Shown: in pieces, positions 3,500 to 46,925 of the stretch | Numbering within the stretch: position 1 is the first letter of the stretch | Layout of the letters: each line of letters starts with the position of its first letter | Assembly: GCA_019637875.1 (NCBI GenBank) | Contig: JAHBUW010000003.1 | Location: forward strand, 62,001 to 126,000 | Direction: 5' to 3' | DNA: 64,000 nt | Source of the DNA: Pseudobdellovibrionaceae bacterium | GTDB taxonomy: Bacteria; Bdellovibrionota; Bdellovibrionia; Bdellovibrionales; Bdellovibrionaceae | Position numbers and translations under genes: made by a program | The notes under the pieces: generated by a model | What the model was told of the DNA's origin: nothing | The model's input: only the letters and a program-made list of their open reading frames with translations | The model's database searches: none

Positions 3500-6415
3500 A
3501 TGTTCCCAACGTTCCGGCGCTCGATGCCGACCCTCATTACGATTCTTGCGGTCGCCGCGATCCTCGTTTTGAAAGTGGTCCTGCTGGAGCTCTTGCAATT
3601 CGACTCGCCGATCCTGCTGTTCTTCAGCGCGATCGCCTTTTCAGCTTGGTACGGCGGACAACGTCAGGGTTTTCTGGCGACCGGGTTGTCCGTGGGTTTC
3701 ATCATCTTGTACCTGATGAACTACCGTGAAATCGAAGTGCACCTGTGGGCGGTTCGCCTGCTGATGCTGTCTTTGGACGGCATCGTGATTTCACTCGTCT
3801 GCGGGAAAATGCACCGCGCGTCCGCGCGCGCGCAAAGCCTGGGACGCGAGGCGCAACTCAACAGCGAACGTTTCCACAAGATTTTCACTTCGGACATGAT
3901 CGGCATCGTCATCAGCGACACCGAGGGCAACATCGAAGAAGCGAACGACTACTTCCTCAAACTCGTCGGCTACACGCAGGCGGACCTTCAGGCCAAACGC
4001 CTGTCCTGGAAAATGCTGACGACCCCCGACACGCTCGACGCCAGTCTGAAAGCCCTGCGCGAAGTTTTGGAGTCCGGGACCGCGCAACCCTTCGAAAAAG
4101 AATACTTGCGGTCCGATGGACGCCGCGTGATCTGTTCGGTTGCGGCGACGCGGGTGAATGAATCGCAAATGGTGGGTTTCATCCTGGATCTGACCGAATC
4201 CAAACGCGTGCAAACGGCGCAGCTCAGCGAATCGCAGATCTTCCTGGATTCCGTCGTCGAGAACATCCCGAACATGATTTTCGTGAAGGACGCGAACAAC
4301 TTGCGCTTCGTTCGCTTCAACAAAGCGGGGGAAGAGCTGTTAGGCCTGGACAGTGACAACCTTCTGGGTCGGAACGATTTCGATCTTTTCCCGCCCGAGC
4401 AGGCCGAACACTTCACCAAAGCGGACCGCGAGGTCTTGCGCGGGCACGCCACCGTCGACATCCCGGAAGAACCGATCTCGACGCCGCAGGGGATCCGTAT
4501 CCTCCACACGAAGAAAATCCCGGTGTACGATCAGGACGGCGAAGCGCAATACCTGCTCGGCATTTCGGAAGACATCACCGAAAAGAAAAAAGCCGAGAAG
4601 CAAAAAATCGAACTCTTGCAATCCGAGCTGGCACTCACCGAAGCCGAAAAAACCGCCCAGCGCCTGGCCTTCCTGACCGAGGCGAGCGCCGCGCTGAACC
4701 GCTCGCTCGACATCCACGCCATGCTGAACACCTTCGCCCGGGTCATGATCCGCGAAATGGCCTCGACCTGCGTGATCGACATCTTGAGTGAAGACGGCGA
4801 AAGTTTCGACCGCTTGGCCGTGACCCGCGGCAGCCGCTCGGGAACGAACGAGGCCATCGACAGCCACGTCGTCGCCGATTTTCAGAGACTTCCGTTCGAC
4901 CTCCCCGCCGAAGACCGCGCGCGAACGAACGGCGAAATCGGACCGCGACCGACGCTACGTCACGGGCGCGTGCAATTGCATCCCGAACTCGAGGAAGGCG
5001 CGATCTGCCAGGCGCTCACGCCGTGTCCCGAACAGGGCGCGGCCCTGAACCGCGCCGGAGCGAAGTCGCTTTTGGTCGTCCCGATTCTTTACGGCACGCG
5101 CATCCTCGGCGCGATCACGCTGATCGCTCCCGACGCCGACCGCGTGTTCGACGAACTCGACATCTCGCTGTCGCAAGATCTGGCGAAACGCGCGGCCTTC
5201 GCGATCGAAAACGCGAATCTCTTCAGTCGTGCGAACGAAGCCTCGCGGGCCAAGTCCGCTTTTTTGGCCAACATCAGTCACGAAATCCGCACGCCTTTAG
5301 GCGCGATGATCGGTTTCGCGGAATTAAGCCTGGAAGAAGGGTCTTTAAATCCCGCGCAAAGCGAACACATTCAAAAGATCGTCAAAAACGGTCAGCAGCT
5401 TTTGCGCATCGTGAACGATGTCCTCGATATTTCGAAAGTTGAATCCGATCACCTGCAGGTCGATCGTGTCGACTTTTCGCTACCGCGCCTTTTGGACGAA
5501 GTGATCTCGCTCTTGCGCAATCAGGCCGAATCGAAAGGGCTGAGGCTCTCGCTGGAAAAATCCGCGAACCTTCCCGAGTCGGTCTCGACCGATCCCTTGC
5601 GCCTGCGCCAAATCCTGATCAACATGATCGGCAACGCGATCAAGTTCACCGAGCGCGGTTCGGTGCAGGTCCTTGCGTCCGTTTCGGCCCGGAGCTCGGG
5701 CGACGCGGCGACGCTCGTCTTCCGCATTCTCGATACGGGCCTGGGCATCGACGACACCCAAGCGCGCCGCTTGTTCGAACCTTTCGTGCAGGCCGACGAG
5801 TCGATGGCGCGCAAGTTCGGCGGCACCGGTTTGGGTCTTCACTTGTCGCGCAAACTCGCGCGGCTTCTGGGCGGCGACGTGGAACTTGAAAGCAGTCGTC
5901 CGGACGCGGGCTCGACCTTCCGGGTCACGATCGACGTGCAACTTCCCTTGGTGAGCCCGCCAAAAGATGCTCCCGCCCCCGCGGCCGGCGCGCACGCCAA
6001 ACTCCGGGGTCGGCTCTTGGTCGTCGAAGACTCCGTCGACAACCAAATCCTGATTCAAGCCTTCCTGGCCGGCGAAGACCTGCAAATTGATTTGGCCGAA
6101 AACGGACGCGAAGGCCTGGAAAAGGCGCTGGCCACCGCGTACGACTTGATTCTGATGGACATCCAGATGCCCGTCATGGACGGCTTCGAGGCGATCAAGC
6201 AGCTGCGCGCCCACGGGCACTTCGGCCAGGTCGTGGCCCTGACCGCGCACGGCATGAAGGGCGACCGCGAACGCTGCCTGGAGCAAGGTTTTAACGACTA
6301 CCTCTCCAAGCCCATCTCGCGCCAGTCCTTGGTCGAATGCGTGAAGGCGAATCTGCCGCAGGGCACGCCGAAGGACCAAAGCTCGTCCCCGGGACTCGAA
6401 ACCGATCTGCACTAA
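3500..6415 (+). CDS. Membrane-bound hybrid sensor histidine kinase (PAS-PAS-GAF-HisKA-HATPase-REC)
   Basis: This 971-residue two-component sensor has a DUF4118-like membrane domain with about four helices (10-105), two PAS domains (about 115-235 and 245-370), a short coiled coil and a GAF domain (about 400-580). Next come HisKA with phospho-accepting His594 in ISHEIRTPLG, HATPase_c (NMIGNAIKFTERG, DTGLGIDD, GGTGLGL) and a C-terminal receiver with Asp887 in LILMDIQMPVMDG and a Lys in LSKPIS. It autophosphorylates and passes phosphate to its own receiver; no HPt domain or partner regulator is nearby. The start is uncertain: ATG at 3500 was used, but TTG 3458 and ATG 3524 are possible and none has a clear ribosome site. 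The amidase gene follows 17 nt downstream. Confidence 0.9.
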   Translation: MFPTFRRSMPTLITILAVAAILVLKVVLLELLQFDSPILLFFSAIAFSAWYGGQRQGFLATGLSVGFIILYLMNYREIEVHLWAVRLLMLSLDGIVISLVCGKMHRASARAQSLGREAQLNSERFHKIFTSDMIGIVISDTEGNIEEANDYFLKLVGYTQADLQAKRLSWKMLTTPDTLDASLKALREVLESGTAQPFEKEYLRSDGRRVICSVAATRVNESQMVGFILDLTESKRVQTAQLSESQIFLDSVVENIPNMIFVKDANNLRFVRFNKAGEELLGLDSDNLLGRNDFDLFPPEQAEHFTKADREVLRGHATVDIPEEPISTPQGIRILHTKKIPVYDQDGEAQYLLGISEDITEKKKAEKQKIELLQSELALTEAEKTAQRLAFLTEASAALNRSLDIHAMLNTFARVMIREMASTCVIDILSEDGESFDRLAVTRGSRSGTNEAIDSHVVADFQRLPFDLPAEDRARTNGEIGPRPTLRHGRVQLHPELEEGAICQALTPCPEQGAALNRAGAKSLLVVPILYGTRILGAITLIAPDADRVFDELDISLSQDLAKRAAFAIENANLFSRANEASRAKSAFLANISHEIRTPLGAMIGFAELSLEEGSLNPAQSEHIQKIVKNGQQLLRIVNDVLDISKVESDHLQVDRVDFSLPRLLDEVISLLRNQAESKGLRLSLEKSANLPESVSTDPLRLRQILINMIGNAIKFTERGSVQVLASVSARSSGDAATLVFRILDTGLGIDDTQARRLFEPFVQADESMARKFGGTGLGLHLSRKLARLLGGDVELESSRPDAGSTFRVTIDVQLPLVSPPKDAPAPAAGAHAKLRGRLLVVEDSVDNQILIQAFLAGEDLQIDLAENGREGLEKALATAYDLILMDIQMPVMDGFEAIKQLRAHGHFGQVVALTAHGMKGDRERCLEQGFNDYLSKPISRQSLVECVKANLPQGTPKDQSSSPGLETDLH

Positions 6416-44022: not shown

Positions 44023-45108
44023 ATGGGCCTGGCACTTCGGGGATTGATCGCCTTCACGCTGATTTCCACTCTGTTCGCGAGCCGACGGACGCTATCGCCG
44101 ACGGGTTCGGACGAAGAGCGTATGGCCTACTACTACGCGCTCGTGGTCGAAGCTGCCGGCGCCTACCAACGCGATTTCCGTGCTTTCGATCGCGAGCGCA
44201 CCGACGTCGCCCGGCAAGCCGCCGAGATTTTGCGACGTCCGCAACAGCTTCGCGCAATGAAGGATCAGGTGCGCCGAAACCCCGACCACGCGTCCGCCGA
44301 GCGCCACCTCCTGCGCTCGGAAATTCTGTATCAAGAGCTGAAACTCGCCACCGAGAAGAATCTGTTCCTAGAGAAATTCCCCGCGCTCGGACATGTCTTC
44401 ACGGGTTACGAGAATCCCTACGGCGAACCCTTCGCGGCCGAGGGCTTGCCGACCGGAGCCGTCCTCGCGACGATGAAATACCAGTCGGGCTATCTGACGC
44501 CCTATATGTTGGCCCTGCCCGTGCATTGCGTACGGCCAGACTTTTGGAGCGATGCCAGTTGTATCTACGACGTGCCGCGGGCCTGCCAGGACTTCTACAC
44601 CAGCCGCGAGCGCCAGCTGACCTACTGGCAGCTCACCGAAGACCTCGCGTTGCGGGAACAGACCACGAATCCCGATGAGGGCGAGATCGATCGCCTCGCG
44701 CGGCAGCTAGCGGCCCTCACCCCGAGATCGCGCGAAGCCGCGCGTTTGACGGCGAAGGCCACGCTCGGACTCTGTGGTTTGGCCGCGATGACGGGGCTTG
44801 ATTTTTCGGCCGAGAAAATTCAGATCACCTACTCCCAATGGCCCGGTTGGACCAACGACATTCCCGACGGTTTCGACGAGGCGCTCGAATACCGGGCCGA
44901 GGTCTGCGGGCACTTCTCGGGCGAACGTCGTCTGAACTTGCAATCCTTGATGGTCTCGGAGCTCGCCCCGCACGCATCGATGCGCACGCTGGAGCTTTTC
45001 GCGTCGCTCACCGCCTGCGAGAGAAAAGGCGTGGCGAAAGCCAAAGACGTCAATCCGATACCTGAAGACATCGAGCTGCGCCCCTCCCGCAAACCCGCGG
45101 CGAGGTAG
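44023..45108 (+). CDS. Exported protein of unknown function
   Basis: Not recognised. The 361-residue protein begins with a hydrophobic segment (LALRGLIAFTLISTLFA) that could be a signal peptide or anchor. A charged helical region (45-120) and a more compact part follow, with Cys in VHCVRPDFW, SCIYDVPRACQDFY, LGLCGLAAM and AEVCGHFSG. No ribosome site is present; TACGCT ends 6 nt before the ATG and could be a leaderless -10 box. The C-terminus Arg-stop (AGG-TAG) merges with the palindromic repeat that follows. Confidence 0.65.
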   Translation: MGLALRGLIAFTLISTLFASRRTLSPTGSDEERMAYYYALVVEAAGAYQRDFRAFDRERTDVARQAAEILRRPQQLRAMKDQVRRNPDHASAERHLLRSEILYQELKLATEKNLFLEKFPALGHVFTGYENPYGEPFAAEGLPTGAVLATMKYQSGYLTPYMLALPVHCVRPDFWSDASCIYDVPRACQDFYTSRERQLTYWQLTEDLALREQTTNPDEGEIDRLARQLAALTPRSREAARLTAKATLGLCGLAAMTGLDFSAEKIQITYSQWPGWTNDIPDGFDEALEYRAEVCGHFSGERRLNLQSLMVSELAPHASMRTLELFASLTACERKGVAKAKDVNPIPEDIELRPSRKPAAR

Positions 45109-45171
45109 CCGCTCACTTCTTGAAACGCGACGCGTTTCAAGAAGTGAGCGGCTGGGCGCCCCCGGCTACCT
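45103..45171. repeat. Palindromic repeat, copy A, spanning two stop codons
   Basis: A 69-bp near-palindrome begins AGGTAGCC and ends GGCTACCT. Its core is a perfect inverted repeat of 23 bp per arm (45107-45129 and 45131-45153, inner CTTCTTGAAACGCG) around one central base. The outer ends contain the TAG stops of the convergent genes 44023-45108 and 45166-45642. The inner 29 bp recur identically in copy B. There is no T-run; it can act as a bidirectional transcription end or be a mobile palindrome. Confidence 0.85.
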
Positions 45172-45642
45172 CACGAGACAGAGCGTGAGGCCGCGGATAT
45201 TTCCGATCTCGAATTGGACGAGGTGCGTGCCCGTGTGGCGGAACTCGATCCAGGTCGAATCCCGATCCCCCAGCTCGATACGCACATCCTCGACGGGACC
45301 GAACTGCGGATCGGTCGCGGACTTCGCGCCCCACTTCGAATCTTTGGTGATGACCGCGAACGCCCGGCGCGGCCCGAGATGCGCGGTCTCGAAATCCAGC
45401 TCGATCAGATCCGCATTGTAAGAGCCGCGCAGAAACTGGCGACTGACCGTCCGTTTGACCGCTTTCAACCGGCAATCGCGATTCTCGACCCAACGATCGG
45501 GCCCGAGCTTGCGCTCCAGATCGATCATCACGGCCGGAGTCACCACCCGCGTCGCCTTCGGTGACGAAGCGACGACTTCAAAAGCCTGAGCCGAAGAGAG
45601 AAAAAGAAAAGACCCCACCAAAGACATCAGCAAGTGCTTCAT
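45166..45642 (-). CDS. Small secreted protein of unknown function
   Basis: A 158-residue protein with a signal peptide (HLLMSLVGSFLFLSSAQAFEV). The mature part is beta-rich: VVTPAVMIDLERKLGPDRW, DLIELDFETAHLGPRRAFAVI and VEDVRIELGDRDSTWIEFR suggest a beta-sandwich fold, with a lone Cys pair possible (NRDCRL, TLCLVR). GGGAGG lies 9 nt before the ATG at 45642. It is flanked on both sides by the same palindromic repeat and ends AGG-TAG-CCG like both neighbours. No family was recognised. Confidence 0.68.
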   Translation of the reverse strand: MKHLLMSLVGSFLFLSSAQAFEVVASSPKATRVVTPAVMIDLERKLGPDRWVENRDCRLKAVKRTVSRQFLRGSYNADLIELDFETAHLGPRRAFAVITKDSKWGAKSATDPQFGPVEDVRIELGDRDSTWIEFRHTGTHLVQFEIGNIRGLTLCLVR

Positions 45643-45670
45643 GGTCCAAGACCTCCCAAGCCACCCGCTC

Positions 45671-45701
45671 ATTGTAAAATCAAAGCTTGTGATGACCGCA
45701 A
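45671..45701 (-). promoter_or_regulatory. Predicted promoter of the small secreted protein
   Basis: Read on the minus strand, TTGCGG (45701-45696) and TACAAT (45676-45671) are 19 nt apart and lie about 28 nt before the ATG at 45642. Confidence 0.4.
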
Positions 45702-45830
45702 TCAGAAACGCACAAGGCTTCCATGATTCCCAAAGCAGGAGGAATAAGTTCGAAACTGTCGAGCAAACAGCCGCAAGGTTGCTGCCTCGCCGCACCAATT
45801 CCCACTCTAAAACGCAGTAAAAAACACACC

Positions 45831-45864
45831 AAAAATCCGTGAAGGCCCACCGAAAGGGACCTTC
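45831..45864 (-). terminator. Rho-independent terminator after speB
   Basis: On the minus strand GAAGGTCC pairs with GGGCCTTC (one G-T wobble) around CTTTCGGT, then ACGG and TTTTT. The stem shares bases with the outer edge of palindrome copy B, so the two structures compete. Confidence 0.65.
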
Positions 45865-45890
45865 TTGAAACGCGACGCGTTTCAAGAAGG
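45860..45890. repeat. Palindromic repeat, copy B
   Basis: A perfect inverted repeat of 15 bp per arm around one base (45860-45874 and 45876-45890). The central 29 bp (CTTCTTGAAACGCG, A, and complement) are identical to copy A, 735 bp away. It lies 6 bp past the speB stop, and on the minus strand the speB end reads AGG-TAG-CCGCT before it, as at copy A. Confidence 0.85.
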
Positions 45891-45896
45891 CAGCGG

Positions 45897-46925
45897 CTAC
45901 CTCCGGCCTTGCGCCACCGCGATCATGATTTGGAAGAGCATGCGGGCGCCGACGTTGCCGTCCCACTCGTCGCCCTCGGGGGCGGGGGCAACTTCGACGA
46001 GATCGCCGCCAACGACTTTGCGGCCCGAGCGGACGACCGCTTGGATCAGGGCCGTGGCTTGCGCCATTTCCAGACCGCCGGGAACGGGCGTTCCGGTGTT
46101 GGGGCAGAGCTTGGGATCAAGACCATCGATGTCGAAGCTGATGTAGACCTGCGGTCCGAGCTTCGCGACGATGCGGTCGCAGATCGACTTCCACGATTCC
46201 CCCTCGTACTCGGCGTTTTTCAAATCCCAGTCGAAGAAGGTGTGGATGCGGTCGTCGTTTTTGATCAGGTTGATTTCAAATTCCGAAACGTCGCGGATGC
46301 CGACTTGGACCAAACGGTCGACGCCTTTCAACTTCAAGACGTTGAACATGATGGAGGCGTGACTCTGTTCGAAGCCTTCGTAAGCGTCGCGGAGATCCGC
46401 GTGAGCATCGAAGTGCAGAACGCTCAAGCCCGGAAACTTCGCCGCGTGGGCCTCGATGGGGCCGAGCGGGACGCTGTGGTCCCCGCCCAGAGTCAGCACG
46501 GCCTGGCCCTGGTCCAGAAGCTTCGCGACTTCTTTGCGTGACCACTCTTGCAGCTCAACGCCGCCGCGGTTCGCGGCCTCGCGGATCTTCGTCATCTCGG
46601 CGGTGCCGCGGTCCTCGCCCTGTTCGAGGGCGCTGATGTACTGCGCGGTCTGCTTACGCAAAGAGGCGCTGCGCTCGCGCCACTGTTCCGGCACCGGGAT
46701 CGTCCCGATTTTCAACGAGCCCACGTCATCCAGATAAGGCGAGTACAGATCCAGCTGCGTACTGGCGTTCAGGACCGAATCCGGTCCGTCGACCGTGCCC
46801 GGGCGGTACGAGGTCGTCACGTCCCACGGAATCGGAAAAACGACGATATCGGCGTCTTTCGCTTCGATGTCCAAACCCAAATAATTGCCATTCTTCAAAC
46901 CGACATCGCTGACATCGAGGCTCAT
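45897..46925 (-). CDS. speB: Agmatinase / arginase-family ureohydrolase
   Basis: A manganese ureohydrolase of 342 residues. The metal ligands are in [12 protein letters not shown] (His), [15 protein letters not shown] (Asp-His-Asp) and [20 protein letters not shown] (Asp-Asp). [15 protein letters not shown] and [18 protein letters not shown] complete the family pattern. It would most likely convert agmatine to putrescine and urea, because its ATG overlaps the SpeDE stop by 4 nt and SpeDE needs putrescine. Arginase or formimidoylglutamase activity is possible, since hut genes occur in this genome. A central insert (about 90-120) lengthens it relative to E. coli SpeB. Confidence 0.88.

Follow-up and report, generated by a model that had tools for sequence, protein, structure and literature searches.

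Why do three neighbouring genes end on the same codon, the same stop and the same following triplet? In the window, that is, the whole 64,000-nt stretch of DNA analysed here, AGG TAG CCG is read at 45108 (+), 45166 (-) and 45897 (-), as a preliminary description had pointed out. The identical 29-bp core that it reported in two palindromes, A and B, is present at 45116-45144 and 45861-45889; the spacing, given there as 735 bp, is 745 bp from start to start, with 716 bp between the cores. The palindromes had also been said to flank one small gene, but A lies between two convergent gene ends and B belongs with the agmatinase gene, at its end. Copy A measures 47 nt as a perfect inverted repeat (45107-45129 / 45131-45153, 23/23 complementary, one central base) and copy B spans 31 nt (arms 45860-45874 / 45876-45890, 15/15 complementary). 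The features concerned are as follows.

44023 to 45108, + strand: gene for an uncharacterised 361-aa protein, ends AGG TAG
45102 to 45129, + strand: arm A-left, short form, head towards the gene at 44023-45108 (model match C3:107105-107132)
45105 to 45108, + strand: GTAG of arm A-left, its TAG being the stop of that gene
45107 to 45153, no strand: palindrome A, two head-to-head arms of 23 bp each, one base between
45131 to 45172, - strand: arm A-right, long form (one 14-bp insert), its head facing the small gene (model match C3:107128-107153)
45169 to 45166, - strand: GTAG of arm A-right, its TAG being the stop of the small gene
45166 to 45642, - strand: small gene, 158 aa, product probably secreted, ends AGG TAG
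45841 to 45864, - strand (that of agmatinase): terminator-like hairpin directly after arm B, weak, at shuffle level, overlapping the edge of B
45860 to 45874, + strand: truncated second arm of palindrome B, headless, away from gene ends (model match C3:107861-107877, E 0.046)
45876 to 45903, - strand: arm B, GCTGCC variant of the short form, its head facing the agmatinase gene (model match C3:107873-107900)
45899 to 45897, - strand: TAG of arm B, the stop of the agmatinase gene
45897 to 46925, - strand: agmatinase gene, 342 aa, ends AGG TAG

Searches of Pfam and NCBIfam returned no match for the 361-aa protein. The small gene at 45166-45642, missed by a simple codon-usage caller, is probably a real gene: its N-terminus is signal-peptide-like as judged by eye, and a homologue is found in one relative (G008; 32% identity, E 5.1e-12).

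What, then, is being repeated? Previously the palindrome had been taken as the unit, yet the unit is a single arm, AAGGTAGCC followed by zero to two 14-bp inserts and GCTCACTTSTTGAAAYGC. The arm is directional, as is seen when all copies are read in the direction of the gene; written that way, it starts with (A)AGGTAGCC, continues with 0, 1 or 2 inserts resembling GGGGCGCCTAGCCG and closes with GCTCACTTSTTGAAAYGC, for a length of ~28-44 nt that comprises a head of 17 nt with an imperfect hairpin (AAGGTAGCCGCTCACTT) and the tail STTGAAAYGC. A palindrome arises where two arms meet head to head, and tight palindromic pairs are found at five loci in addition to the truncated pair B. Within the window, a 21-base pattern allowing up to three mismatches matches only copies A and B (shuffled windows: mean 0.02; 0/100 reached two). 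In the G000 genome as a whole (3.98 Mb, 30 contigs), 13 copies of the half-site CTTCTTGAAACGCG were counted versus 0 of the reversed control. A search of genome contigs for the whole palindrome gave 0 matches. A model built from 29 distinct arms recovers 33 arms at 20 loci, with 32 matches at E <0.001 and one at 0.0135 that completes a pair, and the dispersed repeat family proposed earlier is thus real. Six weaker model matches (E 0.046 to 0.74), including the truncated half of copy B and a diverged second arm at L207, stand outside these counts. Among 59 genomes, the strict arm pattern is confined to G000, there the sole member of its genus, and its reversed control, too, gave 0; chance similarity of the copies was ruled out by these reversed controls and the window shuffles. 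GTAG (or GTGG) stands at one end of 28 of the 33 arms (26 by script, 2 by eye). Bare AAAAGGTAGC shows no excess (19 occurrences vs 25 in the reversed control) and bare AAGGTAGCCG occurs 20 times vs 12 in the control, so that the head by itself is not diagnostic.

Two side observations concern the make-up of the repeats. At L206 (C1:328133-328181), an arm carries two 14-bp inserts, and the insert therefore acts like a short tandem repeat within the element; both convergent genes there have the TAG of the foot as their stop. Other palindromes near arms at L001, L009, L010 and L033 (AAGGTACCTTCTTCC..., GGTAGCAGGTACTTTCC...) look like further related repeat families.

Which enzyme might have spread the arms? 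Pfam Y1_Tnp (PF01797) has two matches in G000, at C7 and C8, both over the cut-off, with NCBIfam REP_Tyr_transpos remaining below its own (55.7 bits vs 80). The C7 gene (C7:6299-6940) lies between inverted arms at C7:6167 (+) and C7:6945 (-) that are identical over 21 bases. The sole PDB match of its product is E. coli TnpA-REP (4er8, E 2.6e-8), and an HUH motif (NHFH) and a Y...NP motif (YVYRNP) are kept in 13 aligned relatives, Y...NP being given in sections of PMC6006769 as the class 2 RAYT signature. Judged by its sequence, C7:6299-6940 encodes a REP-associated tyrosine transposase (RAYT). We consider it very likely that the palindromes consist of copies, placed head to head, of a REPtron's terminal repeat; in a REPtron, such a RAYT, a member of the HUH family, is accompanied by inverted flanking repeats. 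A second RAYT, 56% identical to the C7 protein, is encoded at 5504-6157 (-) of L092 (C8:172000-184000). Its flanks bear a different palindrome family (GGTACCACGTACCGCG etc., GGTACCACGTACCGCGNGCGGTACGTGGTACC-like), the pattern of which is matched without mismatch at 20 genomic sites, the two flanks included.

Relatives of the RAYT were detected in 89 of 143 genomes of the class (E 1e-20); the named matches belong mostly to Bdellovibrionales, Bdellovibrionaceae, Bdellovibrionota or Bacteriovoracaceae, and a few are labelled just 'bacterium', 'Oligoflexia' or 'Deltaproteobacteria'. For a survey of their flanks, 80 of 221 loci were kept, 74 of which had enough flanking sequence. Inverted flank repeats (score at least 14) accompany 62 of these 74 genes as compared to 1 of 444 shuffles, and flanks paired across loci scored as high as 18, which would be expected of repeats that resemble each other from locus to locus. 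The repeats of these relatives are mostly headed AAGGTRCC, not the textbook GTAG: the motifs of the up-flank repeats, which may co-occur, were GGTGCC in 20, GGTACC in 17 and GTAG in 10 (n = 62). A matching head NNGGT-N9-CTT on both flanks was present at just 24 of the 74 loci, and these, together with G000, supplied the 29 distinct heads of a pairing test. Head positions 6 and 12 pair in 29/29, through five pair types (A-T, G-C, T-A, G-T, C-G), which 0/5000 shuffles reach, and positions 8 and 10 in 22/29 (1/5000 shuffles), bearing in mind that related sequences may exceed such shuffles without any structure; at positions 7 and 11, pairing in 15 of the 29 heads was no excess over the shuffles. 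Since G4 and T5 were set in the search, the test does not extend to pairs 4-14 and 5-13; for pairs 1-17 to 3-15, the search pattern itself dictates the pairing in part or entirely. Going by sequence comparison, five pair types at one head position would be hard to get without pairing. The G000 head AAGGTAGCCGCTCACTT fits this clade fold, with mismatches at 4-14 and 5-13.

How closely are the arms tied to stop codons? A same-strand ORF stop (ORF of at least 60 aa) falls at -25 to +3 of the foot in 28 of 33 arms, as opposed to 530 of 8911 random positions at the same loci (5.9%) and 4/33 arms when these are read in the opposite direction, in agreement with the initial placement of copies at gene ends. 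With codon-scored genes, 24 of 30 arms sit at a gene end. Most stops start 3 to 9 nt ahead of GTAG or coincide with its TAG; this TAG is the stop in 11 arms by script and in one more with its foot re-placed. Two of the eleven are doubtful, namely C16:74211, where a better-scored frame ends in TAA a few bases earlier, and C1:271203, which involves a 76-aa ORF upstream of another gene's start. Once these are removed, the repeat supplies the stop codon in about ten cases, as the preliminary description had proposed. TAG is the stop of 12 of the 53 codon-scored genes in the window. Among the arms with no gene end on their own strand are the one to the left of the transposase gene and others located upstream of gene starts. 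The relatives that carry AAGGTGCCTGG repeats have an ORF stop within 25 nt of 11 of the 34 copies (two of those genomes being closely related), so that the stop-codon rule is weaker there. A related repeat, AAGGTGCCTGGTGACTTTTTACA, has 18, 18 and 9 matches in G033, G036 and G062, all of one other genus (L146-L175); several of its copies directly follow a stop TAA, and others follow a terminator.

Did the repeat create these gene ends, or come to them? Agmatinase is present in 39/39 genomes searched (G000 included), and the arm is absent from the gene end in 29/29 orthologues (30 loci inspected, 29 orthologous). Most orthologues stop within a few residues of the G000 protein, one (L120) having a long extra tail, and the nearest (61% identity) aligns up to the last G000 residue, whereby truncation of the gene end was ruled out. 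Since the orthologues lack a repeat and yet end near the same position, the repeat appears to have come to an existing gene end and to have replaced the stop in place. No empty site was seen in the other genomes searched, all of them from outside the genus. For the earlier idea of a repeat that inserts at gene ends and supplies their stop, the outcome is mixed: many copies exist, but the agmatinase C-termini are about the same without it. For the small gene, the C-terminal ends differ (CLVR vs CLMDL in the G008 homologue).

Alternatively, the arms may be a functional 3'-UTR signal that is kept by selection, for translation termination or mRNA stability, with a transposon origin that is secondary or past. 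Their tight placement and constant direction relative to the gene would suit such a role, as would the preservation of the head in single arms whose distal half has decayed. However, the RAYT itself lies between two arms, one of which has no gene end, the agmatinase orthologues all lack the arm, and selection against gene damage would equally give insertion at unrelated gene ends. We regard a 3'-UTR signal as improbable, although it is compatible with the REPtron reading and does not exclude it.

Neighbouring arms less than 1 kb apart are arranged head to head in 12 of 13 pairs. Both arms of a tight pair have the same sequence over 21 bases in 4/5 cases vs 7% of 514 between-locus pairs, suggesting that such a pair originated, or undergoes correction, as one unit. 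Upon folding, the perfect hairpins of tight pairs are stable and many single arms are without a stable hairpin of their own. The repeat had earlier been said to supply a bidirectional hairpin, and ordinary bidirectional intrinsic terminators, alike by convergence or duplication, would explain why perfect GC-containing hairpins occur between convergent genes at A and four other tight pairs. Yet no T-run adjoins the hairpins of A or B and a separate intrinsic terminator follows downstream of 7/30 arms (9/600 shuffles), on which grounds terminator identity was rejected. Moreover, the unit is a single arm of conserved sequence, often without a hairpin, and the sharing of 21-28 bases at 20 loci is not terminator-like. 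Terminators are thus very unlikely to be what is repeated here. That the arms are MITE-like remains of another mobile element, with the RAYT nearby by coincidence, is hardly credible despite fitting inverted-repeat ends and low copy number, because, with 33 arms in 4 Mb, chance is very unlikely to have placed an identical, inverted pair of arms within ~130 bp of one RAYT, and related RAYTs show the same flanking arrangement.

How would a REPtron bring about three identical gene ends? By analogy with E. coli and other REPtrons, for which binding and cutting of the repeat as single-stranded DNA by the RAYT is described in parts of PMC8266576, the transposase may have used single-stranded DNA to spread arms and head-to-head pairs through the genome. 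Copies would survive where genes stay unbroken, that is, at the stop codon with the head towards the gene. Because the head of this lineage reads AAGGTAG, an in-frame insertion would make AGG-TAG the new last codon and stop. In the gap common to two convergent genes, two arms would form a perfect palindrome.

In our judgement, the G000 repeats represent the known REP/RAYT system in a form specific to their lineage, the clade head motif and the low-copy, arm-like form making them a variant of a known pattern. REPINs (Bertels and Rainey 2011) are reportedly two inverted REPs that act as one unit with near-identical halves. The tight pairs likewise consist of two inverted repeats with near-identical halves; unlike in REPINs, many arms stand alone, and in several pairs a host terminator or a long spacer lies between the two arms. 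Going by sections of Nunvar 2010 (PMC2817692) and Di Nocera 2013 (PMC3733652), GTAG REPs share with the G000 system a RAYT between two inverted repeats, dispersed extragenic copies mostly near 3' ends, head-to-head dimers and termini that often provide the TAG stop. TAG-providing REPs at 3' ends having been published already (parts of PMC3733652), the main pattern is known. Against these sources, the G000 system differs in its arm-like unit, whose 17-nt head is an imperfect hairpin and whose tail is long, in relatives that carry AAGGTRCC heads without GTAG, and in copy number, 33 arms being far below the >100 copies that are usual for REPs in the relevant part of PMC2817692. It also resembles the TIRYT/TIRtrons covered in portions of PMC3733652 and PMC6006769 (subclass 2.1), in having a RAYT-like gene, longer terminal inverted repeats that are no textbook hairpins and a moderately abundant repeat family. 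Unlike in those accounts, the GGGGWSAS consensus of many TIRs is not visible in G000 arms, and the G000 RAYT proteins measure ~213 aa whereas subclass 2.1 proteins are, in the pertinent section of PMC6006769, among the longest. Within the open-licence literature, we found neither a description of REPs in this phylum nor GGTGCCAGGCACC, and 'Bdellovibrio' is absent from the main text of PMC3733652 and PMC6006769. Tentatively, Bdellovibrionota might have their own, undescribed REP/RAYT class, with an AAGGTRCC-type start, a 17-nt hairpin head in which 6-12 is always paired, a tail ending near GCGTCA and no GT[AG]G guide, whose copies sit on stop codons and whose recognition motif is, in this lineage, the stop of host genes.

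The same end on three neighbouring genes is explained by a known, little-studied class of domesticated transposases, and the RAYT class is extended to the phylum of predatory bacteria, with a different head motif. With their tight placement on stop codons, the arms are a clean natural set in which to ask whether REPs target gene ends or just persist there, and whether structure at the stop codon alters translation.
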